The notes below the pieces were generated by a model. That model saw nothing but the letters and a program-made list of their open reading frames with translations, did not search any database and was not told the DNA's origin. This document shows, piece by piece, positions 25,861 to 42,393 of a stretch of DNA of 64,000 nt. The DNA comes from Bradyrhizobium sp. 1(2017) (lineage in GTDB: Bacteria; Pseudomonadota; Alphaproteobacteria; Rhizobiales; Xanthobacteraceae). The stretch lies in NCBI RefSeq assembly GCF_011602485.2, contig NZ_CP050022.2, forward strand, positions 3,244,001 to 3,308,000, given 5' to 3'. A program made the translations under genes and the position numbers. How positions within the stretch are numbered: the stretch's first letter is position 1; each line of letters begins with the position of its first letter.

Positions 25861-26095
25861 TTGCCGCGACCTCAAGGCTGGTGACGCAACTTCACTGTGG
25901 CCGTTCACGAGGTTCATTCGTCCTGGGGCAATGTCACAAATTGGCCGATCGCGTCATTGGCGGTGCGACGGGAATTGGAGCGGTAGCGCGGCGGCCCATT
26001 ACGATTGCAACGAACTTGGGCTGTCCAGCAATCGAGATGTAAAACTGGAAGTCTAGAGAGAGGAGAAGTCGCGGTCAGGGACGAGAGGAATGCCA

Positions 26096-27624: not shown

Positions 27625-28548
27625 TCACTCGCGCTGTGGCATACTGCTGGGAACGATCGTTTGAACGATCGACGAATCGAGCGCTTCATAGTCGTGCAGG
27701 CCGATGGTCGCGTAGAGCTCCGCGCGTGTCTGCATCCGTTCGACGACCCTGTGCGTGCCTCCATCCCGCGAGATCGCGGCGTATAGATCGGCCTGGGCCT
27801 TGTTTGCCATCCGCAGAGAAGACACCGGCCAGATCACCATCGCGTAACCCATGGCTTCGAACTCGGCAGCGGTGAAGAACGGTGTCTTGCCGAACTCCGT
27901 CATGTTAGCGAGGAGAGGGACACCAGGCATGCGCTCGGCGAAGGCGCGGAACATCTCGGCCGTGTTCAGCGCTTCTGGAAAGATCGCATCGGCACCCGCT
28001 TCGATATAGAGTTTTGCGCGCGCGATCGCGCCGTCGAGACCTTCGCTTGCGGCGGCGTCGGTCCTGGCGACGATGACGAGATCGCGCCGTGCCTTCGCGG
28101 CGGCTGCGACCTTGGCGGCCATGTCGTGCGCGTCGGCGATCTTCTTGTCGTTGAGATGGCCGCACTTTTTTGGCAAAATCTGATCTTCGAGATGAAGCGC
28201 GCCTGCACCTGCGTCCTCGAAGACACGCGTCGCATGCATCACGTTCAACGCTTCGCCGTAACCGGTGTCGGCGTCGACGAGGAGCGGAAGTCCCGCCGCG
28301 CGGACGATCTGGCGAACGAAGAAGGCGACTTCATCTACGGCGATGATGCCGAGATCGGGCAGGCCCATCGATGCTGTCATCGCTGCGCCAGACAGATAAA
28401 GCGCGTCGAAGCCGGCGGCCTTGGCTTGCAGCGCTGCCATGCCGTTGTGAGCGCCCGGCAGTTGCAGAATGCCGGGCTGTTTCAACAACTCGCGGAAACG
28501 CCGGCCGGCGGATTCGCGGGGAAGGTCGGCGGCAACGAGATAAGTCAT
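27625..28548 (-). CDS. isocitrate lyase/PEP mutase superfamily, methylisocitrate or dimethylmalate lyase-like
   Basis: 307 residues, a TIM-barrel carbon-carbon lyase of the PrpB/dimethylmalate lyase group. Visible features are the N-terminal FRELLKQPGILQLPGAHNG, PLLVDADTGYGEALNV with the Mg-binding Asp, LEDQ, the catalytic loop KKCGH near 126-130, and VARTDAA. PrpB-type enzymes cleave 2-methylisocitrate to pyruvate and succinate, while close relatives cleave 2,3-dimethylmalate to propionate and pyruvate. Sequence alone does not separate them. It is the second gene of a leftward pair, 21 bases behind the PrpF-like gene. No prpC or canonical prpD is nearby, which argues against a standard propionate operon. 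Confidence 0.85.
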   Translation of the reverse strand: MTYLVAADLPRESAGRRFRELLKQPGILQLPGAHNGMAALQAKAAGFDALYLSGAAMTASMGLPDLGIIAVDEVAFFVRQIVRAAGLPLLVDADTGYGEALNVMHATRVFEDAGAGALHLEDQILPKKCGHLNDKKIADAHDMAAKVAAAAKARRDLVIVARTDAAASEGLDGAIARAKLYIEAGADAIFPEALNTAEMFRAFAERMPGVPLLANMTEFGKTPFFTAAEFEAMGYAMVIWPVSSLRMANKAQADLYAAISRDGGTHRVVERMQTRAELYATIGLHDYEALDSSIVQTIVPSSMPQRE

Positions 28549-28569
28549 CCTTCAGAGCTCCAGCAATGA

Positions 28570-29748
28570 TTATGCGCTGCGCCGTGCTTGCACAGTTGCT
28601 TTGGCAGGTCGATAGAACACGCTGCCTTCGAATAGCCGCCTGGCGGTGCGATACACCGCGCCATGAATGGCGCGCGCCTTGGCGGGGTCGTCGGCGTGTT
28701 CGACGGCGGCATCGACCACGGTCGTGCCGGAGGGATGCGCGATGGTGATCGGACCATCCCCGACGCGGGCCAGCCGATTCGCAAGCGTGCCCTTGATACG
28801 CACCGCGATGGCGAGGCAGGTGGCGCCGGTGATTGGGACCGCGCGATGCGGCTGGCCGATCGAAATCATCCGGATGCCGAGCGACATGTCGGAAGGCTCG
28901 AGCCCCTGACCCGACAAGGTCGTCATCTGCCGCGGTGCCACGATCATCGCGACCTTGGGCACGCTCGGGATCTTTGCGGCCGCCGCGACATCGGGAGCAA
29001 GGTCCATCGCCACGGAGGCCGCGCAGCGAATCGCCTCCATCCGTTCGAGGAAGCCCGCATCGCTCTCCAGCGCTTCGGGCATCTCGCTGCCGTCCTTGCC
29101 GAGCGCGGCGGCAGCGACGAAGACGCAGGGGTTGGCGGCATCGACGAGCGATGCCTCGACCGGACCGAGGCCGGGAATATCGAGGGTGTCGGAGACGTGT
29201 CCTGTCGGCAGCAGGCGTCCGGTCCTGGTGCCGCCGGGATCGGTGAATTCAAGCCGGACCGGCGCGCCCTGTCGGCCGACGCCGTCGATGCTCATCTCAC
29301 CTTCGGTCTCCACCTCCCCATCATTCATCGGGAAACGCGCGACGATGATCTTGCCGGTGTTGGTGTTGTGGATGCGTACAACGGCCTCGCCGTTCGCGGG
29401 CGCCGTTACCAGCCCTTCGCTGACGGCGAACGGGCCCATCGCCGAAGACATGTTGCCGCAATTTGCGCTGTAATCGACTGCGGCGCTGTTCACCGAGATT
29501 TGCGCAAAGGTGTAATCGATATCGGCATCGGAGCGCGTCGGTGCGCCGACTACGCAGACCTTCGACAAGGACGACAGCCCACCGCCCATTCCGTCCAGCT
29601 GACGGCCATTGGGATCCGGCGAGCCCATCACGGCCAGGAAGATCGGGTCCCATAGGGCGGGATCTGCCGGCAGGTCTTTTCTGTTGAAGACGACGGCCTT
29701 CGACGTGCCGCCGCGCATGAAAGTGGCTCTGAGCTTGTGCTGCGGCAT
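28570..29748 (-). CDS. PrpF-family isomerase (methylaconitate/methylitaconate/oxalomesaconate type)
   Basis: 392 residues. PrpF proteins have a diaminopimelate-epimerase-like fold and move a double bond by proton transfer. Hallmarks are ATFMRGGTSKAVVF at the N-terminus, DGMGGGLSSLSKVCVVG, and VDYSANCGNMSSAMGPFAV, which contains the conserved Cys region. Members act on 2-methylaconitate, 3-methylitaconate (Mii) or 4-oxalomesaconate. AAAGG precedes the ATG. TGTATAC motifs at 29764 and 29793 lie directly upstream and are candidate operators for the adjacent GntR protein. It is in an operon with the lyase gene downstream. Confidence 0.85.
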   Translation of the reverse strand: MPQHKLRATFMRGGTSKAVVFNRKDLPADPALWDPIFLAVMGSPDPNGRQLDGMGGGLSSLSKVCVVGAPTRSDADIDYTFAQISVNSAAVDYSANCGNMSSAMGPFAVSEGLVTAPANGEAVVRIHNTNTGKIIVARFPMNDGEVETEGEMSIDGVGRQGAPVRLEFTDPGGTRTGRLLPTGHVSDTLDIPGLGPVEASLVDAANPCVFVAAAALGKDGSEMPEALESDAGFLERMEAIRCAASVAMDLAPDVAAAAKIPSVPKVAMIVAPRQMTTLSGQGLEPSDMSLGIRMISIGQPHRAVPITGATCLAIAVRIKGTLANRLARVGDGPITIAHPSGTTVVDAAVEHADDPAKARAIHGAVYRTARRLFEGSVFYRPAKATVQARRSA

Positions 29749-29763
29749 GAAGCTGCCTTTTTA

Positions 29764-29800
29764 TGTATACCGTTGTATCCTTTGGATGCTTGTGTATACA
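29764..29800. promoter_or_regulatory. candidate GntR operators before the prpF-like gene
   Basis: TGTATAC occurs at 29764-29770, and the full palindrome TGTATACA at 29793-29800, 29 bases apart. Both lie within 55 bases upstream of the leftward prpF-like ATG. The same core is embedded in the 16-base palindrome at 30842. Binding by the GntR/FCD protein encoded at 29999 is inferred from position and symmetry. Confidence 0.5.
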
Positions 29801-29998
29801 TTATCGAGGCGGCCCGCTACCCTTATTCTATTCGGTGGACGCTGATGGCCTCGTTCCAGACAGGCGGCGCGACGCCGAATATCCTGCGTCGCTCGCGTGC
29901 CTCGTAAGGTCGGAAGAATCGACGCAGATCAGTGATGGACGGCCTGGTGCGCCTCGCTCGTATGAGCAGTGCCTGCCGAATGAGATCGGAAAGACTTC

Positions 29999-30703
29999 AT
30001 GAACGACGACATGGTGTTGCCGGACCGGGCGAAGTTTGCATCTGCTGCCGACTACGCCTACGCGGCGCTGCGGCGTGAGATCGTGGAGGGGCGTTTTGCT
30101 CCGGGGCGGCGCATGCGCGAAGTGGAGTTGGCGGAACATCTCGGCATCAGCCGAACACCGACGCGCCAGGCGCTGACGCGGCTCGAGCTGGAGGGGCTGC
30201 TCGATCTTCGCCCGAGGACGGGGCTCGTCGTATCGGTTCTCGACATGGATGCGGTCGAAGAACTCTACGAAATGCGTGCCGCGCTCGAAGGCACCGCGGC
30301 TGCGATGGCCGCCAAGCACGCAAGTCCGAAAGATCTTGCTGCATTGGCCAGGCTCGTTGCCGAAGGTGAAACGCTCGATCGCGATCCGCTCAAGCTTTAT
30401 CGCCACAACAGGGAATTGCACGACGCCATTCATGTTGCGGCTCACAACCGGTATCTCGAAAAGAGCTTGTCCGCTCTTCAGGATGCAATCGCGCTTCTCG
30501 GGCCGACGACATTGGCTGACAAGGGGCGTTTCGCTGTCGCTCAGGCGGAACACGCTGCGATCGTGCAGGCCATTTCGCAAAGGGAAGGCGAGAAGGCCGA
30601 TCGCCTGGCGCGCACGCACGTCTTGAATGCGCTCGAGACACGCCGTGTCATCCTGGCGAAGGAGCGTGAGCTCGAGGCCCGCCGGGAACAGGAGGGCGCC
30701 TGA
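29999..30703 (+). CDS. GntR-family transcriptional regulator with FCD domain
   Basis: 234 residues. The N-terminal winged helix spans about 10-80: YAALRREIVEGRFAPGRRMR, then LAEHLGISRTPTRQALTRLE. The all-helical FCD effector domain follows, with ELYEMRAALEGTAAAMAA and the putative metal/carboxylate-binding HNRELHDAIHVAAHNRYL. FCD regulators usually sense carboxylic acids. The gene is divergent from the prpF-lyase pair and precedes the TcuA-like gene, and TGTATACA palindromes stand before both arms. It is thus the likely repressor of the cluster, relieved by a pathway carboxylate. The start fits the family length. Confidence 0.9.
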   Translation: MNDDMVLPDRAKFASAADYAYAALRREIVEGRFAPGRRMREVELAEHLGISRTPTRQALTRLELEGLLDLRPRTGLVVSVLDMDAVEELYEMRAALEGTAAAMAAKHASPKDLAALARLVAEGETLDRDPLKLYRHNRELHDAIHVAAHNRYLEKSLSALQDAIALLGPTTLADKGRFAVAQAEHAAIVQAISQREGEKADRLARTHVLNALETRRVILAKERELEARREQEGA

Positions 30704-30841
30704 ATCGACGTGCGAGCTGCAGCTCGACTGCCGCTCGTACTGCTGCGCTGCCTGCTGACCCTTCTCCGTTGATATCTCCGTAACAGGCTGTTTTCATGGG
30801 AATTTTTCCAGAAAATGGCTGTCTTCAAATTGTCTTGCATT

Positions 30842-30857
30842 CCAATGTATACATTGG
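30842..30857. promoter_or_regulatory. perfect 16-bp palindrome, candidate GntR operator before tcuA-like gene
   Basis: CCAATGTATACATTGG is fully self-complementary and contains the TGTATACA core also present before the prpF-like gene. It lies 56 bases before the ATG at 30914. A second inverted repeat, GTATTC-ACCA-GAATAC (30857-30872), abuts it. Perfect symmetry and a shared core on both arms make it the strongest operator in the window. Confidence 0.65.
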
Positions 30858-30913
30858 TATTCACCAGAATACAGAAGCACAGAAGGCCGCGGGCCAAGCG
30901 GGAAGGAACGGAA

Positions 30914-32434
30914 ATGCACGAAGAGTTCGATGTGATCGTCGTCGGCGCGGGAAACGCTGCCTTGGCCGCGGCGGTCTCCGCGAAGGAAAACGGCGCAGAT
31001 CGTGTCGTCGTTCTCGAGAAGGCTCCCCGCGAAATGCGCGGCGGCAATACGCACTGGAGCGGCGGCGTGCTGCGCTTCGCCTATGACGAGCCGCGCGAGA
31101 TCGGCGCCTTGCTGCCGGGCGTCGAGGACGAGTTCGACAATTTCTACGACGGCATCTCGCCCTATACGCAGGAAGATTTTCACGGCGATCTCATGCGCGT
31201 GACCAATGGGCGCACCGATCCGACCTTGTCGCGGCTGCTGGTGTCGAACTCGCAGGCGACCGTTCGCTGGATGAAGGATACCGGCGGCATCAAGATGGAG
31301 CCGGCGATCAGCCTGTCCGCCGTCAAGAAGGACAATGTGATGGTGTGGGCGCGCGGCCTCGTGGTGCGCGCCGCCCATGAAGGTGTCGGCCTTTCGCGCA
31401 GCTGGTTCGCCACCTGCGAGCGCATGGGCATCGAGGTCCGCTACGGCAATGCGGTCTCGGAACTGCTCGTCGATGACAATGGCCGCGTGGTCGGCGTCAA
31501 GACCAAGGACGATGACGGTGTGCGCTCGCTCGGCGCAAAAGCCGTTGTGCTCGGCTGCGGCGGGTTCGAAGCCAACGTCCAGATGCGCACGCAGCACATC
31601 GGCCCTCTGGTCGGCGCGGCGAAGGTTCGCGGCACGCCGCACAATCAGGGCGACGGCCTGCGCATGGCGCTGGCCATCGGTGCTATGCCCTGGGGGCAGT
31701 GGAGCGGCTGCCATGCGACGCCGATCAGCGCGGACTGGGGCGATTTCGCGCCGCGTGAGATGACCGACCGCAGCAATCGGCTGTCCTATGTCTACTCGGT
31801 GATGATCAATCGCAAGGGCAAGCGCTTCGTCGACGAGGGCGAGGACGGCGCGCTCTTCACCTACGCCAAGTTCGGCCGCGCCATCCTGGCCGAGCCGGGT
31901 GCCAAGGCCTATCAGCTGTTCGACAGCAAGGTGATCCACCTGCTCGAGCCGCGCTATTCGACCAGCGATCCGATCAAGGCCAATTCGCTGGAAGATCTGA
32001 TTGCGCAGCTCGACATCGACGACAAGGCGCAGGCGCTCAAGACCGTCCTCAACTACAACGACCACGCGCGTGCGGCGGACGAAGGCTTCGATCCCACGAA
32101 GAAGGACGGCCTCTCGACCAAGGGGCTCGATCTCGAAAAGACCAACTGGGCGCTTCGGCTCGACAAGCCGCCTTATTATGCTTACAGCGCGACGGGCGGC
32201 ATCACCTTCACCTTCGGCGGATTGAAGATCAACGAGAACGCCGAGGTGATCGGCACCGACTGGCGTCCGATCAAGGGACTGTTCTGCTGCGGCGAACTGG
32301 TCGGCGGTCTCTTCTACGACAACTATCCCGCGGGCACCGGTCTCGTCTCCGGCGCGACCTTCGGACGGATCGCGGGCCGCAACGCTGCAAGCCAGCAGAG
32401 TGCGGCACCAGCCAAAGCGGTGGCTTCGCGATGA
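30914..32434 (+). CDS. FAD-dependent tricarballylate dehydrogenase-like flavoprotein (TcuA-like)
   Basis: 506 residues of the fumarate reductase/succinate dehydrogenase flavoprotein-like family. FAD binding is shown by FDVIVVGAGNAALAAAVSA near the N-terminus and VVLEKAP. The substrate region has GGNTHWSGGVLR, VVLGCGGFEANVQM, GDGLRMALAIGA and a C-terminal YNYPAGTG-like end (YDNYPAGTGLVSGATFGR). In Salmonella, TcuA oxidises tricarballylate to cis-aconitate. The substrate here may be another tricarboxylate. ATG at 30914 follows GGAAGGAACGG; the frame is open to 30815. Its stop overlaps the next start (ATGA). No TcuB electron-transfer partner was found nearby. It lies behind the 30842 palindrome. 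Confidence 0.8.
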   Translation: MHEEFDVIVVGAGNAALAAAVSAKENGADRVVVLEKAPREMRGGNTHWSGGVLRFAYDEPREIGALLPGVEDEFDNFYDGISPYTQEDFHGDLMRVTNGRTDPTLSRLLVSNSQATVRWMKDTGGIKMEPAISLSAVKKDNVMVWARGLVVRAAHEGVGLSRSWFATCERMGIEVRYGNAVSELLVDDNGRVVGVKTKDDDGVRSLGAKAVVLGCGGFEANVQMRTQHIGPLVGAAKVRGTPHNQGDGLRMALAIGAMPWGQWSGCHATPISADWGDFAPREMTDRSNRLSYVYSVMINRKGKRFVDEGEDGALFTYAKFGRAILAEPGAKAYQLFDSKVIHLLEPRYSTSDPIKANSLEDLIAQLDIDDKAQALKTVLNYNDHARAADEGFDPTKKDGLSTKGLDLEKTNWALRLDKPPYYAYSATGGITFTFGGLKINENAEVIGTDWRPIKGLFCCGELVGGLFYDNYPAGTGLVSGATFGRIAGRNAASQQSAAPAKAVASR

Positions 32435-33420
32435 GCGTCGCCGCCACGACCTCGGGATCCGGCTTTTGCGCCGAGAGTCTGGCCGAGCAGATCCTGACCC
32501 CGCAGCCGCGGGACGCCAGGACGCTTGCACAGGCGAGGGCAGCGGTCATTCAGGCGTTTGGCCAGACGCTGTCCGGTACCCGGGCAGGCCTGACGAAGGC
32601 CCTGCTGAATACATCAGGCGTCGCGATGGCCGACGGCGCGTCGCTCGTCTTCGGGACGGAGCGGCGGACCAGCGCGGTCGATGCTACGCTGATCAACGCC
32701 ACCGCAGCGGCGGCCGGGTCCGAAGCATCGCATGGTGGTATGAATGCGGCCTGCATCGTGACGCTGTTCGCGCTCTGTGAGGAGCGGCAAACGACCGGGC
32801 AGGAATTCCTCGATGCGTTGATATCGGGCGCAAAGGCGTCCGTTAGTCTCGCGCCCGCGCTGTCGCTGGCAGGCGACCAGTTCGGGCCCGCCTTGCTCGG
32901 TGGGGTAGCGGCCGCAACGCACGTGCTCGGATTGAGTCGTCCGAAAATTGCAGCCGCATTGCTCATGACCGGGATGGCGAACGTTGACAGTCCCGCCACG
33001 CAGGGCGGGCCGAAGTCGTTGATGGCTGGACTGAGCTTCAGGAGCGGACTGCTGGCCGCGCTGCTCGCCGAGGCGATGGACGAGGCTTCCTGCGCCGAGG
33101 TGATCGGCAGTGAGGGCGAAGCGATCTCACCTCAGGCCGCGGACAGCAGCGCGTCCGAAGCGGCGGCGTTCGATCTTCTTGCCGTTCAATTGCCGCCGGA
33201 AGCCGATCTCTGGGACCAGTTCGAACGGCAGGCGAGCGTCGTCCTGCAGCGCGATCAGATCGCTCCGCTGTTCGAGCGGCTTGAGACCATCGACAAGGTG
33301 AAGGATCTCGCGACGGTTTCGCGTCTGTTGCAGACGCGCGGCGCTCAGGCGGCGCCGAAGAAAGTCGTCTTCGCCGCGCGTGGAACGCACGAGCCGGAGG
33401 AGACGACCTGGGTTCCCTGA
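32431..33420 (+). CDS. MmgE/PrpD-like protein, short and diverged
   Basis: 329 residues; PrpD proteins are usually about 450-480. The N-terminal all-helical part matches the family (ARAAVIQAFGQTLSGTRAGL, DATLINATAAAAGSEASHGG, GQEFLDALISGAKASVSL, VAAATHVLGLSRPKIAAALL). The second alpha/beta domain seems mostly missing. The C-terminal 100 residues are a helix-rich tail (FERLETIDKVKDLATVSRLL) unlike canonical PrpD. The usual family HxxD region reads GSEASHGG, so dehydratase activity is uncertain. It overlaps TcuA by four bases, so translation is coupled. It may be a degenerate dehydratase, an isomerase or a structural partner. Confidence 0.65.
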   Translation: MSVAATTSGSGFCAESLAEQILTPQPRDARTLAQARAAVIQAFGQTLSGTRAGLTKALLNTSGVAMADGASLVFGTERRTSAVDATLINATAAAAGSEASHGGMNAACIVTLFALCEERQTTGQEFLDALISGAKASVSLAPALSLAGDQFGPALLGGVAAATHVLGLSRPKIAAALLMTGMANVDSPATQGGPKSLMAGLSFRSGLLAALLAEAMDEASCAEVIGSEGEAISPQAADSSASEAAAFDLLAVQLPPEADLWDQFERQASVVLQRDQIAPLFERLETIDKVKDLATVSRLLQTRGAQAAPKKVVFAARGTHEPEETTWVP

Positions 33421-33517
33421 ACCCGCGAAGGAATGCGAGGCAGCGAGGCTGCTTCGTGACAACAAGCCTGACAACAAGAGCAAGGCCGACAAAAGCAACA
33501 TCTGGGGAGAGATTGGA

Positions 33518-34675
33518 ATGAAGCGTTTTGAGTTGATTGCCGTACTCGCTGCATCGGCCGTGTGCTCTGCGGCGCACGCCGAAGACAGTGTCACGATCGG
33601 TGTTCACGCCAGCTTTTCCGGGGCCGGCGCAGCGTTCGCCGAAGGCATGCTCGCCGCGACGAATTTTGCCGCCGAAGATGTCAACAAGGACGGCGGCCTT
33701 GAGGTCGCCGGCAAGCGCTACAAGGTCCTGATTAAGCAATATGACGACCGCTACCGCGCCCAGGATGCGGTCACGGCCATGGATCGCCTCATCACCCAGG
33801 ACGGAATTCGCTTTGTCGTCGGTCCGATGGGGTCGGCGGCGGCGGTGGCGACGAAAGATCAGACCACCTCCGGTAAGGTCATCACCATGACGCTGGCGTT
33901 CACGCCGCGCGCGCTGGGCGCCGACGCGCCCTATGCGTACCGGCCGGTCATAACCACGGGTGAATTTTCCGACCCGCAAGTTGCGTGGCTCATGAAGAAT
34001 ACAGCGGCCAAGCAGGTCGTGTCGCTGCTGCCTAACGACGAGACCGGGCAGCAGATCGGTGTCGCGAACTTCAACTCCTACGCCAAGACCGGCGCAAAGC
34101 TGCAGGTCGAGTATTTCGAGCGCGAGCGCGTCGATTTCGTGCCGATCCTCACCCGCATCCTGATGAAGGCCGACGGCCTTGAGCTCGGCGGCAATTCTCC
34201 GACTACGGCCGGACTCATTCTCAAGCAGGCGCGCGAGCTCGGTTACAAGGGCCCGGTGTTCGTGACCGGCGGCGACGTCGCGGCCGAGATGCTCAAGGTC
34301 GCTGGCAAGGATGCGGCCGAAGACGTCTACGTCCACCTGCCGATCGACACCGGTCTGCCGGATACGGCCGCCTATGTCGCCCGCTTCAAGGCCAAGTATG
34401 GCCCGAATATGAACGGCTTCAGCCCGTTCTTCTATGCCGGCCTGCAGATGCTGTTCACCGCCATGAAGAAGGCCGGGACCGTGGACGACACCACCAAGAT
34501 CGCAACGACGCTCGACGGATTGTCCGACGTTCCCACCGCAATGGGCAAGGCGGGTTGGACCGGCGAGCAGAAGTACGGGATCAAGCACCAGATCGACCTG
34601 CCGTTCTATGTCGGGCAGTTCAAGGACGGCGTCGTCGCGAAGGTGGCGACCTGCGACGTCAACGCGTGCAGATAA
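33518..34675 (+). CDS. branched-chain-type ABC transporter substrate-binding protein (LivJ/K-like)
   Basis: 385 residues with signal MKRFELIAVLAASAVCSAAH. The mature protein has the type-I periplasmic binding fold: DSVTIGVHASFSGAGAAFAE, VNKDGGLEVAGKRYKVLIKQ, then FVVGPMGSAAAVATKDQ at the ligand region. Members bind amino acids, but also many aromatic and organic acids, so a carboxylate ligand is likely from context. GGGGAGA precedes the ATG; the frame is open to 33380. It begins a five-gene transporter set with two permeases and two ATPases. Two Cys in CDVNACR close the protein. Confidence 0.9.
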   Translation: MKRFELIAVLAASAVCSAAHAEDSVTIGVHASFSGAGAAFAEGMLAATNFAAEDVNKDGGLEVAGKRYKVLIKQYDDRYRAQDAVTAMDRLITQDGIRFVVGPMGSAAAVATKDQTTSGKVITMTLAFTPRALGADAPYAYRPVITTGEFSDPQVAWLMKNTAAKQVVSLLPNDETGQQIGVANFNSYAKTGAKLQVEYFERERVDFVPILTRILMKADGLELGGNSPTTAGLILKQARELGYKGPVFVTGGDVAAEMLKVAGKDAAEDVYVHLPIDTGLPDTAAYVARFKAKYGPNMNGFSPFFYAGLQMLFTAMKKAGTVDDTTKIATTLDGLSDVPTAMGKAGWTGEQKYGIKHQIDLPFYVGQFKDGVVAKVATCDVNACR

Positions 34676-34739
34676 GCAGCCGCTACATCGGGCGAGGCGC
34701 GCTGCTGCGCCTCGCTGAAGCGATTGGAGTTGTCGTCCC

Positions 34740-35615
34740 GTGAGCATGAACATCATTCTGGCCCAGACGGTCGTGAACGGCCTCATGGTGGGCATGATCT
34801 ATGTGCTGATGGCCATCGGCTTCACCATGGTGTTCGGCATCATGCGCATCGTGAACTTCGCGCATGGCGAATTCTACATGGTCGGCGCTTTTCTGTTCGC
34901 CATCCTCTACGGCAGCAACGATATGCCGTTCGCCGTCAGCGTCCTGCTCGCGGTTGGCGCCACGGCCGTGCTGGGACTGCTGATGGAGCGAGTCGTATTC
35001 CGAAAGTTTCGCGGCAACGAGCTGAACGGCATGATCGCTTCCGTCGGCGTCGCTCTCATAGTGCAGAACAGCGCGCTTCTGCTGTGGGGATCGTCGGCGC
35101 GCACCGTGGCCCCGATCGTCTCTGGAGTAGTGTCCGTCGGCGGCATCGTCTTTCCGTGGTCGCGGCTGGTAGTTATCATCGGTGCGATCGTGGCGGTGGT
35201 GTCGCTCAACCTGTTGGTCGGCCATACCAGGATCGGCCGTGCCATGCGCGCCGTCGCGCAAGACGCGGAGATCGCGCAGGTGCAGGGCATTCGCGTCGAC
35301 CTCATCTTCCCGGTCGCATTCGTGCTCGGGGTGAGCCTTGCCGCCTTTGCCGGTGTGCTGATGGCTCCGGTGCTGTCGGTCTCGCCGTTCATTGGTCTCG
35401 CGCCGACGTTGAAGGCCTTCGTGATCGTCGTGATTGGCGGGCTCGGCAGCGTCCCGGGTGCGGTGGCCGGCGGATTGCTGATCGGCCTGATCGAGAGTTT
35501 CGCCGGGACGTTCGTGAGTGCCTCGCTGTCCGAGATCCTCCAGTTCCTGGTCGTGATCGCCGTCGTGTTGCTGCGTCCGCAAGGTCTGCTTGGCCGAAAG
35601 GAGCGTGAGGCGTGA
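34740..35615 (+). CDS. branched-chain-type ABC transporter permease (LivH-like)
   Basis: 291 residues with about eight membrane segments. Typical LivH stretches are GLMVGMIYVLMAIGFTMVFG, MRIVNFAHGEFYMVGAF, and VRVDLIF-like IRVDLIFPVAFVLGVSLAAF followed by FVIVVIGGLGSVPGAVAGGL. It pairs with the LivM-like protein to form the channel. The start is a GTG at 34740 with GGAG upstream; ATG at 34746 is an alternative. The stop overlaps the next start (GTGA). No missing motif was noticed. Confidence 0.9.
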   Translation: MSMNIILAQTVVNGLMVGMIYVLMAIGFTMVFGIMRIVNFAHGEFYMVGAFLFAILYGSNDMPFAVSVLLAVGATAVLGLLMERVVFRKFRGNELNGMIASVGVALIVQNSALLLWGSSARTVAPIVSGVVSVGGIVFPWSRLVVIIGAIVAVVSLNLLVGHTRIGRAMRAVAQDAEIAQVQGIRVDLIFPVAFVLGVSLAAFAGVLMAPVLSVSPFIGLAPTLKAFVIVVIGGLGSVPGAVAGGLLIGLIESFAGTFVSASLSEILQFLVVIAVVLLRPQGLLGRKEREA

Positions 35616-36598
35616 TTCCTTCCACAACCAAGCCGATGCATTATCTCGGTGTCGCGATGGCGGTGATCGTCGCCGCCCTGCTGCCCTGGTTCGCGCCGAA
35701 CCAGTTCTATATCCATCTGGCGACGGTCGGTTGCATCAATCTCATGCTCGTGCTGGGCCTTGCCGTCATTGCGCGGGCAGGGCAGCTCTCGATGGGCCAT
35801 GGTGGCTTTGCGCTGGTCGGCGGATATGTCTCGGCGTTGCTGTCGATGAAGGGGTGGCCGCCGCTGCTCACCCTGTTCATCGCCGGGTTGGTCGCGGCCG
35901 TCATTGCCGCCGCTCTCGGCTGGATCATCCTCCGCTTGCGCGGCGTTTACTTCGTGCTGGTGGCCTTTGCGTTCGGCCAGATCGCGGTGTTGTTGGCGCT
36001 GGACATGAGCTCCATAACGGGCGGTGCCAACGGGCTGGTCGGCGTGCCCCCGATCTCGATCTTCGGCTACGTGCTTCGTGCCAAGCCGCAATTCTATCCC
36101 TTCGCACTGGCCTGCGCGCTGACGACGCTGCTTCTGATCTGGCTGCTTTATCGGTCGCCGCTGGGCACGATGATGGCGGCCACCGCCGAGAACCAGCGCC
36201 TCACCGAATCGAGTGGCATCGATACGCACCGGGTCCAGGTGATTGCCTTCACCATCGGCTCCGGCATCGCGGGCTTCGCCGGTGCGTTGTCCACGCACTA
36301 TCTCCGCTTCATCTCGCCGGACTCATATACGTTCTGGGAATCCGTTTCCTATTTGACCATGCTGGTCGTCGGCGGACGGGATGGCGTGCTGGGACCGATC
36401 GTCGGTGTGCTCGTGCTGACACCCTTGCCGGAGCTGCTGCGCTCCACCGAAGGATTGCAGCACATCATCTACGGCGCCGTGCTCGTGCTCTGCCTGATTT
36501 TCGTGCCGAACGGACTGGCAAGTCTCGTCCAGACCTGGCGTTCGCGCCAGCGGGTTGTAGCAGCAGGCACAGCGCGTGTGGCCGAGGAGGTCACATGA
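35612..36598 (+). CDS. branched-chain-type ABC transporter permease (LivM-like)
   Basis: 328 residues with about ten hydrophobic segments. Family stretches are INLMLVLGLAVIARAGQLSM, GHGGFALVGGYVSALL, ITGGANGLVGVPP and TMLVVGGRDGVLGPIVGVLV. The start is a GTG that overlaps the previous stop by four bases. GAGGAGG, just before its stop, serves the next gene. It acts in the inner membrane with the LivH-like subunit. Length and motif set are normal. Confidence 0.9.
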   Translation: MIPSTTKPMHYLGVAMAVIVAALLPWFAPNQFYIHLATVGCINLMLVLGLAVIARAGQLSMGHGGFALVGGYVSALLSMKGWPPLLTLFIAGLVAAVIAAALGWIILRLRGVYFVLVAFAFGQIAVLLALDMSSITGGANGLVGVPPISIFGYVLRAKPQFYPFALACALTTLLLIWLLYRSPLGTMMAATAENQRLTESSGIDTHRVQVIAFTIGSGIAGFAGALSTHYLRFISPDSYTFWESVSYLTMLVVGGRDGVLGPIVGVLVLTPLPELLRSTEGLQHIIYGAVLVLCLIFVPNGLASLVQTWRSRQRVVAAGTARVAEEVT

Positions 36599-37356
36599 GC
36601 ATGCTCGTGGTCGATCACCTGAAGCGGTCTTTCGGCGGACTTGTCGCCGTTCGAGACGTATCCTTCGAGGTCGAGGAGGGCGACTTCCTCGGCCTTATCG
36701 GCCCGAACGGCGCGGGCAAGACCACGTTGTTCAACGTGATCTCGGGCGTGTTGAGGCCTTCGGCGGGCACGGTCCGCTTTATGGGCCGGGACATCTCGGG
36801 GCAGCCCGCCAATCAAACGGTGCGGCAGGGGCTTTCGCGGACCTTCCAAGCCGCGACCATCTATCCAGAGGCGACGGTCATCGAGAATGCCGCGCGCGGC
36901 ACGTTGGCCTCTGATATCACCGGCCTGTGGAGCGGGTTTCTCTCGAGCAAATGGCGGCGGACCGCCGAGGAGAAAGCGCTTCATGTGCTCGACCTCCTTG
37001 GCCTGATGCGGCGCGCGGGCCTGAAGGCGCGCGAGCTGTCTTATGGCGAGCAGCGCCGTCTCGGCGTTGCAATCGCACTTGCGAGTGACCCAAAACTCTT
37101 GATGCTCGATGAACCCGTTGCCGGCCTCAATCCGGAGGAGGCCGCGGAACTCGCCTCGGTGCTCCGGCGAGTGAGATCGGAGCGCGACGTCACCATGGTT
37201 ATGGTCGAGCATCACATGCGCACCGTCATGGGCCTGTGCAATCGCGTCGTGGTGCTGGATCACGGCACGCTGATCGCGCAGGGAACGCCCGCGGAAGTCG
37301 TCGCGAATCCGGTCGTGATCGAGGCGTATCTCGGCAAGGAAGCCGTCCATGCTTGA
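36595..37356 (+). CDS. ABC transporter ATP-binding protein (LivG-like)
   Basis: 253 residues. It has Walker [10 protein letters not shown], an ABC signature of diverged type ([16 protein letters not shown]) as is usual for LivG, Walker [14 protein letters not shown] and an H-loop in [10 protein letters not shown]. The frame extends back to 35590 through the permease gene, but ATG at 36595 has GAGGAGG and overlaps the LivM stop. It couples ATP hydrolysis to import with the LivF-like partner. The C-terminus ends with the typical LivG segment ([14 protein letters not shown]). Confidence 0.9.
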
Positions 37357-38056
37357 TGTTCGCGGAATTAGTGTCGCCTACGGTGCGTTGACGGCGGTGC
37401 GCAATCTGAGCGTGTCTGTGGCCGACGGCGCGATCGTCTCCCTGATCGGCTCGAACGGTGCGGGGAAGACCACGACGATGAAGGCTATCATCGGCCTCAA
37501 GCCGGTCAGCGGCGGCGAGATCTATTTCGACGGCGAACGCATCGACGGCACGTCCGCGCCGCAGCGCGTCGGACGTGGCATCGCATTGTCGCCGGAGGGG
37601 CGACGCGTGTTCCCGCAAATGAGCGTGCTCGACAATCTGCTCGTCGGTGCCTATTCGCAGGGCGACAAGGCGAAGCAGAACAAAACGCTGGATCAGATCT
37701 ACGGCTATTTCCCGCGCCTGGTGGAGCGAAGGAGCCAAATGGCAGGCTCACTGTCGGGTGGCGAGCAGCAGATGGTCGCCATCGGCCGGGCGCTCATGGC
37801 AAGGCCACGCCTGTTGCTGCTGGATGAACCCTCGCTCGGGCTTGCGCCGATCATCGTCGATGAGATCGCGCGCATCATCGTGGAGATCAACCGCGATATC
37901 GGCATGTCGATCATCCTGGTCGAGCAGAACGCGAAGCTTGCGCTCAATCTATGCAACGAGGCCTTCGTGTTGGAGACTGGCGCGGTCGCGCTGAGCGGGA
38001 AAGGCAAGGACCTTCTGGCCAGCGACTATGTGCGGCGCGCCTATCTCGGCATCTGA
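37349..38056 (+). CDS. ABC transporter ATP-binding protein (LivF-like)
   Basis: 235 residues, the second ATPase of the importer. It has the Walker A-type GSNGAGKTTTMK, signature SLSGGEQQMVAIGRAL, Walker B RLLLLDEPSLGLAP and H-loop-region LVEQNAKLAL. The start overlaps the LivG-like stop by eight bases. It completes a five-component transporter that lies between TcuA/PrpD-like and dehydrogenase genes, so the ligand is expected to feed those enzymes. The family call is firm. Confidence 0.92.
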   Translation: MLDVRGISVAYGALTAVRNLSVSVADGAIVSLIGSNGAGKTTTMKAIIGLKPVSGGEIYFDGERIDGTSAPQRVGRGIALSPEGRRVFPQMSVLDNLLVGAYSQGDKAKQNKTLDQIYGYFPRLVERRSQMAGSLSGGEQQMVAIGRALMARPRLLLLDEPSLGLAPIIVDEIARIIVEINRDIGMSIILVEQNAKLALNLCNEAFVLETGAVALSGKGKDLLASDYVRRAYLGI

Positions 38057-38093
38057 AACATATTCCTCTATCTGGAAATTCCGGAGTTCTGAC

Positions 38094-38987
38094 ATGACTG
38101 GATCTCTCACCTTCGGCTTCATCGGCTTGGGCGTCATGGGCGAGCCCATGTGCCGACACCTCGTTCAGAAGACCAAGCAGCAGGTGCTGGTTCACGACCT
38201 CAACACTGAGCCCGTCGCGCGACTGATTCAGGCCGGCGCCGTCGATGCGGGCTCGGTCGCCGCGGTGGCCAAGGCCGACATCGTTTTCATCTCGATGCCG
38301 AGCGGCGAGCACCTCAAGAAAGTCTGCGAGATGCCGGGCGGGCTGCTCGAATTCGCGCGCGCCGGCCAAACCATTGTCGATCTCTCGACAAGCCCGCTGA
38401 AACTGACGCGCGAGCTGGCCGGCGCTTTTGCCGCCAAGGGTGCCGAATACGCCGATGCGCCCGTCGCCAGGACGCGTGCTGCGGCCGAGGCTGGCACGTT
38501 GGCAATTTCTGTCGGTGCGACCTCGGATGTGTTCAGCCGCATCGAACCGTTGCTGCGCCACTTCGCGTCCGAAGTGACCCTTTGCGGCGACGTCGGCTCG
38601 GGCCAAGTTGTGAAAATCCTCAACAACATGGTTGTGGTGGGCACCGTGACAGCGCTGTGCGAGGCGGCTGCGATCGCGGAATCGGCGGGTGTCTCGACCA
38701 AGACCCTGTTCGACGCCCTCTCGAAGGGCTCCGCCGACAGCTTCGCGCTGCGCAACCATGGATACAAGGCCGTCGCGGCGCGGGAGTTTCCCGAGCGCGT
38801 CTTCTCGACTGACTACATGCACAAGGACATGTCCTATGCGCTCGACATGGCGAAGGATGCCGGGATCGATGCCAGGGAAGCGGCGCTCGGCGCCCGTGTG
38901 CTGGTCGAAGCGTCCCAAGCGGGCTTTGGAGCGAATTACTGGCCGGTCATCGTGAAGGTCATCGAGCGCTCCTCGAAAAAGTCATGA
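38094..38987 (+). CDS. 3-hydroxyisobutyrate dehydrogenase-family oxidoreductase
   Basis: 297 residues of the beta-hydroxyacid dehydrogenase group. The NAD-binding start is FGFIGLGVMGEPM, the substrate motif is DAPVARTRAAAEAGTLAISV, a variant of DAPVSGG, and the catalytic Lys lies in GSGQVVKILNNMVVV. Relatives reduce or oxidise 3-hydroxyisobutyrate, tartronate semialdehyde or 2-(hydroxymethyl)glutarate. The change of SGG to ARTRA in the substrate loop suggests a ligand different from hydroxyisobutyrate. ATG at 38094 has GGAG upstream; the frame is open to 38028. It lies 37 bases after the LivF-like gene, so it is probably in the same transcript. Confidence 0.85.
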   Translation: MTGSLTFGFIGLGVMGEPMCRHLVQKTKQQVLVHDLNTEPVARLIQAGAVDAGSVAAVAKADIVFISMPSGEHLKKVCEMPGGLLEFARAGQTIVDLSTSPLKLTRELAGAFAAKGAEYADAPVARTRAAAEAGTLAISVGATSDVFSRIEPLLRHFASEVTLCGDVGSGQVVKILNNMVVVGTVTALCEAAAIAESAGVSTKTLFDALSKGSADSFALRNHGYKAVAAREFPERVFSTDYMHKDMSYALDMAKDAGIDAREAALGARVLVEASQAGFGANYWPVIVKVIERSSKKS

Positions 38988-39054
38988 CCGATGCGTGAAG
39001 GGCGGTCGAGCGTCGCCATTCGAGTTCAAGCAATAATGATCAAGGGAGGGCTCC

Positions 39055-40014
39055 GTGCGGGTGTTGTTGTTGACGATCACGCTGCTTCTGTCACACATGA
39101 ATCTGGCCGCAGCCACTGAAACCTATCCCTCTCAACGGATTACCGTCATCGCGCCGTTTGCTCCCGGCAGCGGAACCGATGGCGTCGCGCGCATCGTGTT
39201 TCAGCGGCTGTCGGAGCTGCTGAAAGCGACGATCATCATCGACAATCGCGTGGGCGCGAACGGCGCGCTGGGAGCGACAGCCGCCGCGCGTTCAGCGCCC
39301 GACGGCTACACGTTGCTAGTTGGCGGAACGTCGACGCACGCCGCGAATCCAAGCCTGCTGAAATCCATCCAGTACGATCCCATCACGGACTTTGTTCCGA
39401 TTTCGCAGTTCGGCGTGTTTCCATATTTTCTGATTGTCGATCCATCACTGCCCGTCCAGAGCGTGGCCGACCTCGTAGCCCTTGCGAAGAGCAAGCCCGG
39501 CACGTTGACGTTCGGTTATGCCAATGCACTCGGCCAATTGTCCGGCGAGGCGTTCAAGCGGCGGGCGGGGATCGACATTGCAGCCGTGCCCTACCGGAAC
39601 AGCCCGCAAGTTGTCACCGACATCATCGCCCAGCGCGTCTCCATGACCTTCATGGACATGGCGCCTGCGGTCTCCCAGGTCGAGGCTGGTTCGGCCCGTG
39701 CGCTTGCGACCACGAATCCGGACCGCGCGTCGCTCTTCCCGCAGATCCCGACGATGAAGGAGGGAGGCCTTGCATTCATCAACATCTCCGCATGGTCCGG
39801 CCTGTTCGCTCCCAAGGATACACCGCCGGAAATCGTCACGAAACTCTCCGAGGGCGTGCGTGAGGTGCTGGCGGAACCCGAGATCAAGAGCCGCCTCGCC
39901 GATATCGGCTTCGAGGTTCAGTGGATGGCCCCGTCCGATTTCGCCAGGCATCTCAAGGACGACATCGAATTGTGGGCCACGACAACGAAGGAAGCTGGCA
40001 TCGAACGCCAGTGA
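39055..40014 (+). CDS. Bug/TctC-family tripartite tricarboxylate transporter binding protein
   Basis: 319 residues with a short signal (VLLLTITLLLSHMNLAAA). The mature protein has the Bug pattern: PSQRITVIAPFAPGSGTDGV, IIDNRVGANGALGATAAARS, DGYTLLVGG, and YDPITDFVPISQ, with the ligand loops in normal positions. Bug proteins bind carboxylates and amides and are often present without the TctAB permease, as here. The start is GTG at 39055 following GGGAGG. It adds a second substrate-binding protein to a cluster that already has an ABC importer, so it may use a distant permease or act as a sensor. Confidence 0.88.
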   Translation: MRVLLLTITLLLSHMNLAAATETYPSQRITVIAPFAPGSGTDGVARIVFQRLSELLKATIIIDNRVGANGALGATAAARSAPDGYTLLVGGTSTHAANPSLLKSIQYDPITDFVPISQFGVFPYFLIVDPSLPVQSVADLVALAKSKPGTLTFGYANALGQLSGEAFKRRAGIDIAAVPYRNSPQVVTDIIAQRVSMTFMDMAPAVSQVEAGSARALATTNPDRASLFPQIPTMKEGGLAFINISAWSGLFAPKDTPPEIVTKLSEGVREVLAEPEIKSRLADIGFEVQWMAPSDFARHLKDDIELWATTTKEAGIERQ

Positions 40015-40023
40015 AAGATCGAC

Positions 40024-40827
40024 ATGTCCGAGTATGAAGTCTATGCCGTCCGATATGCCGCGAAGGACGAGCGCCGCGCATCAGAGAACTTCATCGACAA
40101 TAGCGGAATACCCGATGCTCCGATGCCGCTGGATTTCTTCGTCTGGGCGCTGGTCGGCCGGGGCCGCACGGTGATCGTCGATACCGGCTTCGATGAGAAG
40201 GCAGGAAAGCCGCGTAATTATGCCGTCACAAGACCGGTGGCCGAGGGCCTCAAGCAGGTCGGTATCAACCCTGACAACGTCAAGGACGTCATCCTGACCC
40301 ACATGCATTGGGATCATGCCGGCAACCACGATCTGTTCCCGCAGGCCCGCTATCACGTGCAGGAGCGCGAGATGCATTTCTGTACGAGCCGCTGCATGTG
40401 CGATGCCGAACAGAAGAAGGCCTACAACGCAGAGGACGTCAGCCACATCGTCAGGCGCAACTTCGAAGGGCGCGTGACCCTTCACGATGCCAATTCCGAT
40501 TTCGACGACGGGATATCACTGCACTGGCTGGGTGGCCATACCGCGGGACTTCAGGTCGTGCGGGTGAAGACGCGCCGCGGCTACGTGGTGCTGGCCTCGG
40601 ACGCCTCGCACTATTACGCCAACATTCTGCGGCGCCGGCCATTCCCGGTGCTGTTCGACACGAACCAGATGCTGAACGGCTTTGCGGTCATCCGGCAACT
40701 GGCCGACAGCCCCTCGCACATTATTCCGGGGCACGACCGGCAAGTGCTCTCGCTGTTTCCCGCCGCCCGCGAAGGGATCGACGGGATCGCGCGACTGGAT
40801 GCTGATCCCCGCGGAAGTCCTGCCTAA
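40024..40827 (+). CDS. metallo-beta-lactamase fold hydrolase, N-acyl-homoserine-lactonase-like
   Basis: 267 residues. The zinc motif is THMHWDHAGN (HxHxDH). A further ligand His lies in GGHTAGLQ, Asp in LASDASHYY, and the last His in IPGHDRQV, so the dinuclear zinc site is complete. The closest recognised group is the AHL lactonase family (AiiA/AttM-like), but many members open other lactones. Its place between a Bug-type binding protein gene (9 bases away) and an aldehyde dehydrogenase gene suggests a lactone step in the catabolic route rather than quorum quenching. It has no signal peptide, so it is cytoplasmic. Confidence 0.82.
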   Translation: MSEYEVYAVRYAAKDERRASENFIDNSGIPDAPMPLDFFVWALVGRGRTVIVDTGFDEKAGKPRNYAVTRPVAEGLKQVGINPDNVKDVILTHMHWDHAGNHDLFPQARYHVQEREMHFCTSRCMCDAEQKKAYNAEDVSHIVRRNFEGRVTLHDANSDFDDGISLHWLGGHTAGLQVVRVKTRRGYVVLASDASHYYANILRRRPFPVLFDTNQMLNGFAVIRQLADSPSHIIPGHDRQVLSLFPAAREGIDGIARLDADPRGSPA

Positions 40828-40914
40828 GCATCAACGAAGCTAGTCCAGACGGCCGGCGCAGCCTGCGCCATCCGGATCAGACACACCATTCGCCGGTTGC
40901 GGAGATGATCGACC

Positions 40915-42393
40915 ATGTCGAAGAAGTACGGAATTGCCATTGCCAACGAGACGGTGACCGCGCCGAACCAGGAATGGTTTGCCGCCATCAATCCCTTTAG
41001 CCGCGAGGAATGGGCGCAGATACCGCAGGCAATGCCCGCGCAGGTCGCCGATGCGGTCGCGGCGGCGAGACGAGCCTATGATTCCGTCTGGAGCAAGACC
41101 ACCGGTCTTGCCCGCGCGAAATTGCTGAACGGGCTGGCCGACCTGCTCGATGCGCAAGCCGAGCGCATCGCCATCATGGAGAGCACCGACAACGGCAAGA
41201 TCATCCGCGAGACGCACGGGCAGATGCATTTCGCCGCGCGTGCCTATCGGTTTTTCGCCGGCTGCGCCGACAAGATTTTTGGCGATACGATCCCGCTGGA
41301 TCAGCGCGACGTCTTCGACTTTACGCGTCGGGAGCCGATCGGCGTCGCCGTACTTATCACCGCCTGGAACTCGCCCATGGGGCTGCTTGCCAACAAGCTC
41401 GCGCCGGCGCTGGCGGCGGGCAATTGCGTCGTCATCAAGCCGTCCGAGCATGCATCCGTGACGACGCTGGAATTCGCTGAGTTGGTGCGGGAGGCGGGCT
41501 TCCCGCCGGGCGTTGTCAACGTCGTGACCGGTGATTACAGGGTAGGGCAGGCACTGCTGACGAGCGGCCGGATCGATCGTGTCAGTTTCACGGGCAGTCC
41601 GAACGTCGGTCGTCAGATCGCGGCGGAGGCAGGCCGGTCTCTCGTCCCGGTGACGTTGGAGCTGGGCGGCAAGTCTCCCAACATCATCTTCGAAGACGCT
41701 GACCTCGACAAGGCGACGGTCGGGGCTCTCGCCGGCATTTTTGGCGCAACCGGGCAGACATGTATCGCCGGCTCGCGGCTGCTCGTTCAGCGCTCGATTC
41801 ACGATGAGATCGCCAAGCGCCTGGTTGATCGGGCGGGCAAGATTCGTCTGGGCAATCCGTTGGACAAGACGACCGATATGGGCACCGTGGCGAACGAACC
41901 GCAATTTGGCCGCATCCTGAAATTCGTTTCCGACGCGCAAGCGGAGGGGGCGGTTCTGGCCTGCGGCGGAAAGCCTGCAGCTGGTGACGGATTGGGGAGA
42001 GGCCTGTTCATCGAGCCGACCATCTTTACCGGGGTGGATAACAGGATGGCCATTGCCCAGGAAGAGGTGTTCGGACCAGTGCTGTCGATCATTCCTTTCG
42101 ACACCGAGGAACAGGCGATCCTTATCGCCAATGACAGCAAGTATGGGCTGGCTTCCGGCGTCTGGACGACGAACCTGTCGCGCGCCTTGCGCGTGTCGCG
42201 GGCTGTCCATGCCGGGACCGTCTGGGTGAATACCTATCGCGCCTCAAGCGCGATGGCGCCGTTCGGCGGGTTCAAGGAGTCGGGCTTCGGCAAGGAACGC
42301 GGTGTCGCGGCGCTGGATGAATTTCTGCAAACCAAGAATGTGATGATCGATTTTTCCAACGAAGAGCGTGATCCGTTTGCTCTTAAATTGTAA
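40915..42393 (+). CDS. NAD(P)-dependent aldehyde dehydrogenase
   Basis: 492 residues, full length for the family. It has the oxyanion-region WNSPMGLLANKLAPALAAGN, cofactor motif FTGSPNVGRQIA, general base Glu in TLELGGKSPN and catalytic Cys in GATGQTCIAGSRL. It oxidises an aldehyde to an acid, and the substrate is not defined by sequence. It ends the rightward catabolic genes and is convergent with the GntP-like permease gene. A GGCGCAG-C-CTGCGCC hairpin lies in the 87-base gap before it. All catalytic residues are present. Confidence 0.9.
   Translation: MSKKYGIAIANETVTAPNQEWFAAINPFSREEWAQIPQAMPAQVADAVAAARRAYDSVWSKTTGLARAKLLNGLADLLDAQAERIAIMESTDNGKIIRETHGQMHFAARAYRFFAGCADKIFGDTIPLDQRDVFDFTRREPIGVAVLITAWNSPMGLLANKLAPALAAGNCVVIKPSEHASVTTLEFAELVREAGFPPGVVNVVTGDYRVGQALLTSGRIDRVSFTGSPNVGRQIAAEAGRSLVPVTLELGGKSPNIIFEDADLDKATVGALAGIFGATGQTCIAGSRLLVQRSIHDEIAKRLVDRAGKIRLGNPLDKTTDMGTVANEPQFGRILKFVSDAQAEGAVLACGGKPAAGDGLGRGLFIEPTIFTGVDNRMAIAQEEVFGPVLSIIPFDTEEQAILIANDSKYGLASGVWTTNLSRALRVSRAVHAGTVWVNTYRASSAMAPFGGFKESGFGKERGVAALDEFLQTKNVMIDFSNEERDPFALKL

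Follow-up and report, generated by a model that had tools for sequence, protein, structure and literature searches.

A putative GntR-controlled gene cluster for branched-carboxylate catabolism in Bradyrhizobium, with a predicted lid-less MmgE/PrpD protein

The stretch of DNA analysed here, called the window throughout, spans 64 kb (positions 3,244,001-3,308,000) of the single 7.86-Mb contig of Bradyrhizobium sp. 1(2017), and the subject of the present work is a set of fourteen genes lying between its positions 27625 and 42393. These genes are arranged in two divergent arms, which probably represent one cluster under one GntR regulator, because a putative operator octamer is shared by the arms in ten out of ten clusters and the arms are found together in every intact cluster of the type that was examined. 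We give about even chances to the further proposal that the cluster is a single inducible, GntR-controlled catabolic unit for a branched di- or tricarboxylate or a lactone, with cleavage by PrpB as the last step. Moreover, one of the gene products, a short PrpD, is, judging from its alignment, a conserved lid-less MmgE/PrpD pseudoenzyme; the loss of the lid and of the catalytic residues had been missed by an earlier sequence-only reading of this DNA and represents the new point of this report. The evidence was drawn from sequence comparison and concerns the gene content, the conservation of the unit, the shared octamer, the loss of the PrpD active site and the purifying selection acting on the short gene.

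The fourteen genes, each of which matched its family when the list of open reading frames (ORFs) was searched with Pfam and NCBIfam profiles, and the two octamer copies are the following:

27625..28548, minus strand: prpB-type C-C lyase (methylisocitrate-lyase subfamily), 307 residues; TIGR02317, 421.4 bits (cut-off 354.4)
28570..29748, minus strand: PrpF-family double-bond isomerase (prpF), 392 residues; PF04303, 389 bits
29793..29800, no strand: putative operator octamer TGTATACA, 44 nt upstream of the prpF start
29999..30703, plus strand: GntR/FCD-family regulator (gntR), 234 residues; PF00392 and PF07729
30846..30853, no strand: putative operator octamer TGTATACA, 60 nt upstream of the tcuA start
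30914..32434, plus strand: TcuA-like FAD dehydrogenase (tcuA), 506 residues; NF006130, 534.7 bits (cut-off 369)
32431..33420, plus strand: predicted lid-less MmgE/PrpD pseudoenzyme (short prpD), 329 residues; PF03972, 46.8 bits (cut-off 32.1)
33518..34675, plus strand: LivK-type binding protein, 385 residues; PF13458, 155.5 bits (longer ORF from 33380)
34746..35615, plus strand: LivH permease; PF02653, 139.6 bits (ORF from 34740; start by the gene caller)
35612..36598, plus strand: LivM permease; PF02653, 132.4 bits
36595..37356, plus strand: LivG ATPase; PF00005 and PF12399
37349..38056, plus strand: LivF ATPase; PF00005
38094..38987, plus strand: 3-hydroxyisobutyrate-dehydrogenase-family oxidoreductase (HIBADH), 297 residues; PF03446 and PF14833 (longer ORF from 38028)
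39061..40014, plus strand: TctC/Bug-type binding protein (tctC); PF03401, 194 bits (ORF from 39055)
40024..40827, plus strand: metallo-beta-lactamase-fold (MBL), lactonase-like hydrolase, 267 residues; PF00753
40915..42393, plus strand: aldehyde dehydrogenase (ALDH), 492 residues; PF00171, 566 bits

Every gene named by the sequence-only reading was thereby recovered with a family match. The same set was obtained by code-usage gene calling, which corrected the starts; compared with the longest ORFs, the likely starts are 30914 for tcuA, 33518 for livK and 38094 for hibadh. The tcuA start is that of the gene caller and agrees with the conserved gap before the gene, the profile scores having been computed on the longer ORF from 30815. 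The frame of livH runs from 34740 to 35615, and the overlapping ORF 34724-35608 has no match; a LivM-LivG fusion in the long ORF 35590-37356 was rejected, the first 330 residues of that frame overlapping LivM in another frame. From tcuA onward the plus-strand genes overlap or are separated by short gaps, and the G+C content of the cluster (0.60-0.64 in 2-kb steps) lies inside the range of the whole window.

The conservation of the two arms was checked in the best 80 PrpF loci of 299 relatives, to which further copies from genomes of the genus were added. The stretch from prpB to tctC is whole in seven Bradyrhizobium loci among the 80, and, once three duplicates had been dropped (L120, L122 and L123, identical to L007, L009 and L008, respectively), ten distinct Bradyrhizobium clusters, i.e., that of the window and nine others, were found to share the order prpB, prpF, gntR, tcuA, short prpD, livKHMGF, hibadh and tctC, although in several of them the locus ends within tctC. 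The mbl and aldh genes follow in all the six clusters whose stretch reaches far enough. Furthermore, a TcuA at least 82% identical to that of the window is present in 10 out of 146 genomes of the genus, all of which fall within the 11 possessing a full-length PrpF of at least 61% identity (counts uncorrected for relatedness and obtained from the best first-look candidates scored per search). The comparison of neighbourhoods across Bradyrhizobium, proposed earlier as a way of finding out whether the arms are separate units, thus revealed no separation of them.

In the window there are exactly two copies of TGTATACA, one in the gap preceding prpF and one in that preceding tcuA; each of the nine other loci likewise has exactly two, at the same sites (in L122 an over-long tcuA call takes in the second of them). 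Single-base composition would lead one to expect 0.3 copies in the whole window and, for both gaps taken together, 0.002. Conservation is poor upstream of tcuA except in a block containing TGTATACA and in the segment leading from it to the gene, while in the gap between prpF and gntR the octamer is embedded in a conserved block of GTATAC-like repeats. A second conserved stretch of the latter gap, nearer to gntR (about 29810-29900 in the window), was also observed in most of the ten clusters. When one mismatch was allowed, the pattern TGTATACATT gave three matches in the window, two of which represent one palindromic site, a number reached in 2 of 100 shuffled sequences (mean 0.41); genome-wide it was found in three places, the two cluster sites and one at 2.018766 Mb, compared with one match for the reversed control pattern. 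The octamer also lies just before prpF in four further loci (L012-L015) and before a gntR in L115 and L117. These data suggest that the GntR protein of the cluster may bind TGTATACA in front of both arms.

As for the short PrpD, it matches PF03972, which covers the N domain only, whereas the lid-domain model PF19305 has no match in the window protein and scored 117 and 129 bits in the two full-length sisters scanned. The alignment with full-length proteins of sister clusters (see below) revealed that the helical domain and the C-terminal segment are kept, the tail ending in ETxWVP, and that the whole lid is gone; for an MmgE/PrpD relative, passages of PMC7347537 describe about 260 N-terminal and about 40 C-terminal residues of the helical domain around a lid of about 140 residues. 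Six catalytic residues identical in five out of five full-length sisters (H106, D109, H120, H171, K219 and K287, numbering of the L115 sister) are lost in all ten short proteins, with the exception of K219, kept in the window copy only; by motif order, and not by alignment to its sequences, they seem to correspond to family residues listed in PMC12290011. The AlphaFold model of the short protein is almost entirely helical (mean predicted local distance difference test, pLDDT, 80; predicted template modelling score, pTM, 0.81), the ends and the linker being of low confidence, while that of a full-length relative from L012 (pLDDT 87.7, pTM 0.89) possesses extra strands. All the 23 PDB matches retrieved by Foldseek with the short model (E at most 0.001) belong to the MmgE/PrpD family, with query TM-scores of 0.48-0.66.

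In a 58-row tree the short PrpDs group as a single clade (support 100/100), whose stem measures 1.51 changes per column and joins four full-length Bradyrhizobium proteins (98/82; 93/71 for the grouping of these four) with L012 outside, the program having warned of long branches elsewhere in the tree. According to this topology, the short PrpD arose once. Its gene is open and in frame in ten out of ten clusters; in the window cluster and in eight of the nine others, its first 4 nt coincide with the end of tcuA (in L121 the called start differs). The ratio of non-synonymous to synonymous substitutions (dN/dS, Nei-Gojobori) has a median of 0.26 over 45 pairs and a maximum of 0.32, compared with medians of 0.04-0.11 for the other thirteen genes; on these codon comparisons, the short prpD is under purifying selection. 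Along the protein, dN is lowest (0.084) in the last 73 residues, which are also the part nearest to the full-length sisters (56-58% identity versus 39-41% for residues 8-219). A full-length orthologue elsewhere in the genome was sought in six genomes of the short type and discarded, the other MmgE/PrpD proteins being at most 33% identical to a full-length sister. The genome of the window harbors three other members of the family, which could supply a related activity. In the open-licence PMC literature, a search for MmgE together with pseudoenzyme or lid domain listed three papers, on cis-aconitate decarboxylase/IRG1.

Rearranged sister clusters, joining many of the same enzymes, were found in other Bradyrhizobium, in marine Rhodobacterales and in Ferrovibrio-like genomes:

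L115 and L117 (other Bradyrhizobium): gntR, tcuA, full-length PrpD, another HIBADH, SDR, mbl, prpF, gntR, prpB, Liv
L127: tcuA2, SDR, mbl, prpF, Old-Yellow-Enzyme-type reductase, gntR, prpB, aldh, Liv
L016 and L019 (marine Rhodobacterales): prpB, prpF, tcuA2, Liv, aldh, SDR, mbl, first part of a PrpD (the locus ends within it)
L017, L018 and L131: tcuA2, aldh, prpB, SDR, prpF, with PrpD and acyl-CoA genes nearby

Partial versions of the L115/L117 gene set are present in three more Bradyrhizobium loci (L116, L118 and L150), and the SDR of this Bradyrhizobium type belongs to the NAD-dependent epimerase/dehydratase kind. More widely, 54 non-Bradyrhizobium PrpF loci of at least 13 kb contain PrpD in 24 cases, TcuA in 16 (always together with PrpD) and a PrpB relative in 10, whereas five other window genes, used as controls, were found in none of the 54; such counts are approximate, since gene calling retrieved PrpF itself from 52 of the 54 loci and some reference proteins came from these same loci. 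An aconitase-type hydratase was looked for in the sister clusters and the candidates were rejected: the 652-residue protein of L127 is an Old-Yellow-Enzyme-type oxidoreductase, and the 647-residue protein of L116 appears, by eye, to be similar to it.

In principle, the two arms might be separate units that are neighbours by chance, and a genome in which prpB and the C-terminal part of prpF occur in the absence of the right arm (G027, locus L143) would fit such an explanation. This lone case is, however, a remnant with a truncated prpF, matching window positions 27650-28936, and the piece of G071 (L146) comprises only prpF and prpB sequence, matching 28332-29223; the octamer common to both arms in all ten clusters and the presence of PrpF in each of the ten genomes with a TcuA of at least 82% identity render chance adjacency very improbable. 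Other observations do weigh against one regulated unit with a common pathway. The third TGTATACATT match (position 9267 of L156, genome position 2018766) precedes an unrelated set of genes for a Rieske oxygenase, a GntR regulator other than that of the cluster, and a reductase, read by eye as vanA-vanR-vanB-like; for this reason, the octamer class is not unique to the GntR of the cluster, which suggests that several FCD regulators share it. A search for the octamer and three close variants found none of them in L016-L019, L127, L128, L131, L143, L148 or L150; those of L116 and L118 are not located before tcuA or prpF. Promoter-like sites did not stand out (one found versus 2.9 in shuffled sequences), and terminator-like sites were at chance level (12 versus 10.7). 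In L011 and L119 prpB is 74-75% identical to that of the window, whereas most of the other genes, the short prpD excepted, share 86-98%, so that this prpB may have been exchanged for another allele. A TctC occurs in the vicinity of PrpF in 34 of the 54 loci, but proteins of this sort are very common. Lastly, the window cluster has no counterpart of the SDR found with mbl in the sister types, and its HIBADH shares only about 30% identity with that of the L115-L118 type (L091-L093); the side pathway may therefore differ from that of the sister clusters.

A similar question arises for the short PrpD, which might be a decaying relic devoid of function. The loss of the catalytic residues, a dN/dS above that of the other thirteen genes and the very long stem branch are what such a relic would display, and we consider this explanation possible, though it is the less favoured one: the frame is intact in all ten clusters with no pair above 0.32, the C-terminal 73 residues are the most constrained and the closest to the full-length sisters, a single origin was followed by retention in ten sequences, and the helical model is largely confident. 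If the protein is retained as a pseudoenzyme, the simplest reading would make it a partner of TcuA. A bolder and rather unlikely version of this idea is that a TcuA-type FAD dehydrogenase requires it as a non-catalytic subunit, which would replace TcuB as a scaffold or in electron-transfer docking, the cluster then specifying an undescribed route for a branched tricarboxylate or lactone.

The family assignments of the single enzymes were then compared with those of solved proteins. PrpB passes TIGR02317 and falls just under PRK11320 (323.4 bits, cut-off 353); its score is 215-243 bits with solved entries named methylisocitrate lyase and 165 with dimethylmalate lyase, and the top solved match (310 bits) is 4iqd, deposited as a CPEP phosphorylmutase and presumably a Bacillus protein. 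Hence, of the two sides of the methylisocitrate/dimethylmalate-type lyase proposed earlier, the methylisocitrate one is the nearer. The KKCGH loop and other active-site residues align with those of E. coli PrpB. PrpF scored 265.7 bits with the 3-methylitaconate isomerase entry and 262.9 with the methylaconitate isomerase PrpF; its scores stay under the cut-offs that NCBIfam sets for GalD and for PrpF, the 4-oxalomesaconate tautomerase model of the gallate route, NF033377, giving 328 bits against a cut-off of 440. It keeps the lysine (glutamate in entry 5k87) and the cysteine of the aligned CGN motif, i.e., the K73 and C107 that are required in vivo according to PMC5690661. The TcuA-like protein passes NF006130 and fails TIGR02485 (245.4 bits, cut-off 372.55), both models having been scored on the longer ORF. 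The best solved relative of HIBADH is 3cky, named 2-hydroxymethyl glutarate dehydrogenase (153.8 bits, the next being 140.1). The MBL translation contains the HxHxDH motif, and N-acyl-homoserine-lactone (AHL) lactonase models matched it weakly, all under their cut-offs. Recognisable active-site motifs are kept in PrpB, PrpF, MBL, HIBADH and ALDH, while the solved relatives of LivK, TctC and MBL gave substrate hints too weak or too broad.

From these assignments we infer a route in which operator binding, induction, the reactions and their order, the class of substrate and the partner role are all proposals. The GntR/FCD protein would bind the TGTATACA operator before each divergent arm and would be released by the substrate or an intermediate. 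The Liv-type ABC importer, perhaps helped by TctC, would take up a branched di- or tricarboxylate or the corresponding lactone or hydroxy compound; HIBADH, MBL and ALDH together suggest entry as a lactone or hydroxymethyl acid, MBL opening the lactone and the HIBADH-family enzyme with ALDH oxidising the hydroxymethyl group to a carboxylate. The TcuA-like flavoprotein could then introduce a C=C bond between carboxylated carbons, PrpF could isomerise it, a hydratase (a housekeeping aconitase, or the full-length PrpD in the sister clusters) would add water, and PrpB would cleave the resulting 2-methylisocitrate-like acid into pyruvate and a dicarboxylate. The PrpD beside TcuA would have lost lid and active site in this lineage and been retained as the non-catalytic partner of another protein, TcuA being the most likely one. 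The sequence-only reading had pointed to a missing mutase and a missing aconitase-type hydratase; both are indeed absent among the fourteen genes, but the hydratase gap is no obstacle, because 2-methyl-cis-aconitate is a substrate of housekeeping aconitase (PMC5690661) and the genome has two aconitase-family matches, one of them in a 919-residue frame.

Two better-known routes may be set against this proposal. In canonical tricarballylate/aconitate catabolism, TcuA would convert tricarballylate into aconitate, PrpF would isomerise it and PrpB would act as an isocitrate lyase. The passing of NF006130 and the company of TcuA with PrpF and Bug-type proteins in betaproteobacterial loci agree with it; however, TcuB is lacking in the cluster, the only genome match of the TcuB model TIGR02484 lying at 1.909 Mb beside another TcuA, which scores better (724 against 369 for NF006130, 597 against 372.55 for TIGR02485; the pair spans 1.907-1.910 Mb). 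Since the genome possesses this better TcuA with its TcuB, the window protein is no specific pointer to a tricarballylate-like acid, as had been suggested earlier, and, with the failure on TIGR02485 and a PrpB of the methylisocitrate type, we regard this route as improbable. The locus of the other pair (L160, genome 1900000-1918000) was also seen to carry a GntR (44%), a HIBADH (53% identical to that of the window) and, by eye, IclR-like, periplasmic-binding-protein-like and alpha/beta-hydrolase-like genes. The lower nicotinate pathway of Eubacterium barkeri comprises Hgd, Mii, Dml, a B12 mutase and DmdAB, and the cluster might be an aerobic cousin of it, used by methylitaconate- or dimethylmaleate-type acids entering after the mutase step. 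The resemblance noticed earlier stands insofar as the best solved relatives of PrpF and HIBADH bear the fitting names; it is weak, the margins being small for both, and PrpB is closer to the methylisocitrate lyase entries and to 4iqd than to dimethylmalate lyase. The B12 mutase and the DmdAB-type hydratase are absent from the gene list of the cluster (the mutase was not searched for in the rest of the genome), and for this reason the cluster would not encode that route, which we hold to be unlikely.

Regarding the surroundings, an AstE/DoeB-like deacylase and a cytochrome P450 are located upstream of prpB (24610-27334); they were rejected as members of the cluster, being unmatched beside the related clusters scored for them, as were the downstream urea-transporter, UreD and GntP-like genes, without a match in the 80 PrpF loci. 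The sole Rfam match of the window lies outside the cluster, at 49398-49680 (5' ureB small RNA, RF02514, 40.7 bits, gathering threshold 40), near the urea transporter (44059-45075) and UreD (45112-46062), and no tRNA was found in the 64 kb. Beyond aldh, L119 and L120 carry succinyl-CoA-ligase-like subunits and a MaoC/FAS1-dehydratase-like protein, which do not adjoin aldh in the window.

The cluster thus represents a defined, testable candidate regulon for a carbon source, and the names of its family models (methylisocitrate lyase, TcuA, PrpD) imply pathways that the comparative evidence does not support. An MmgE/PrpD enzyme appears to have lost its catalytic part and yet to have been retained under selection beside a flavoprotein; were it a TcuA subunit, an enzyme would have been recycled as a scaffold or docking partner.

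None of the pathways tested accounts for the full gene set, in agreement with the sequence-only reading, and no description of this cluster was recognised in the open-licence PMC full-text literature. Within the same genome, a locus at 5.98 Mb (L158, 5974500-5994000) likewise joins an MBL (46% identical), MmgE/PrpD, a HIBADH-like protein and a Liv importer; it has two PrpDs of full-length size, inspection by eye adds two binding proteins and genes resembling those of carboxymuconolactone decarboxylase, and its 19.5 kb gave no match to TcuA, PrpF or PrpB. Sets similar to L158 were seen in L124 and L126 of other Bradyrhizobium. With TcuABC the cluster shares the TcuA-like flavoprotein, and it differs by having neither TcuB nor a TcuC-type permease, the better TcuAB pair being elsewhere in the genome. 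Its enzymes belong to the same families as Hgd, Mii and Dml of E. barkeri, from whose pathway it differs by the lack of the B12 mutase and DmdAB and by a lyase nearer to PrpB than to Dml. The methylsuccinate/itaconate cluster of Pseudomonas and Cupriavidus, as outlined in passages of PMC12290011 and PMC9875883, comprises a CoA transferase, a hydratase, a citramalyl-CoA lyase and an acyl-CoA dehydrogenase; it resembles that of the window in having an MmgE/PrpD protein in a branched-dicarboxylate cluster and, in P. aeruginosa, a lactonase. There, however, MmgE/PrpD is an active isomerase, and the lactonase RdoPA is a 127-residue protein annotated as a ring-cleaving dioxygenase, unlike the window MBL; the route is CoA-dependent, and we rejected it as the identity of the window cluster. 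Finally, the AcnD/PrpF variant of the 2-methylcitrate cycle, in which prpC, acnD, prpF and prpB occur together (passages of PMC5373536; the variant also in PMC5690661), shares the PrpF isomerase, the PrpB-type lyase and the expected products, pyruvate and a dicarboxylate. PrpC, AcnD and PrpE are not among the fourteen genes (PrpC was not searched for in the rest of the genome), and PrpD is present only as the apparently dead protein, so that, PrpC and an active PrpD being absent from the cluster, it would not be a methylcitrate cycle; to the shared isomerase and lyase it adds an FAD dehydrogenase, an importer, a lactonase-like protein, HIBADH and ALDH.

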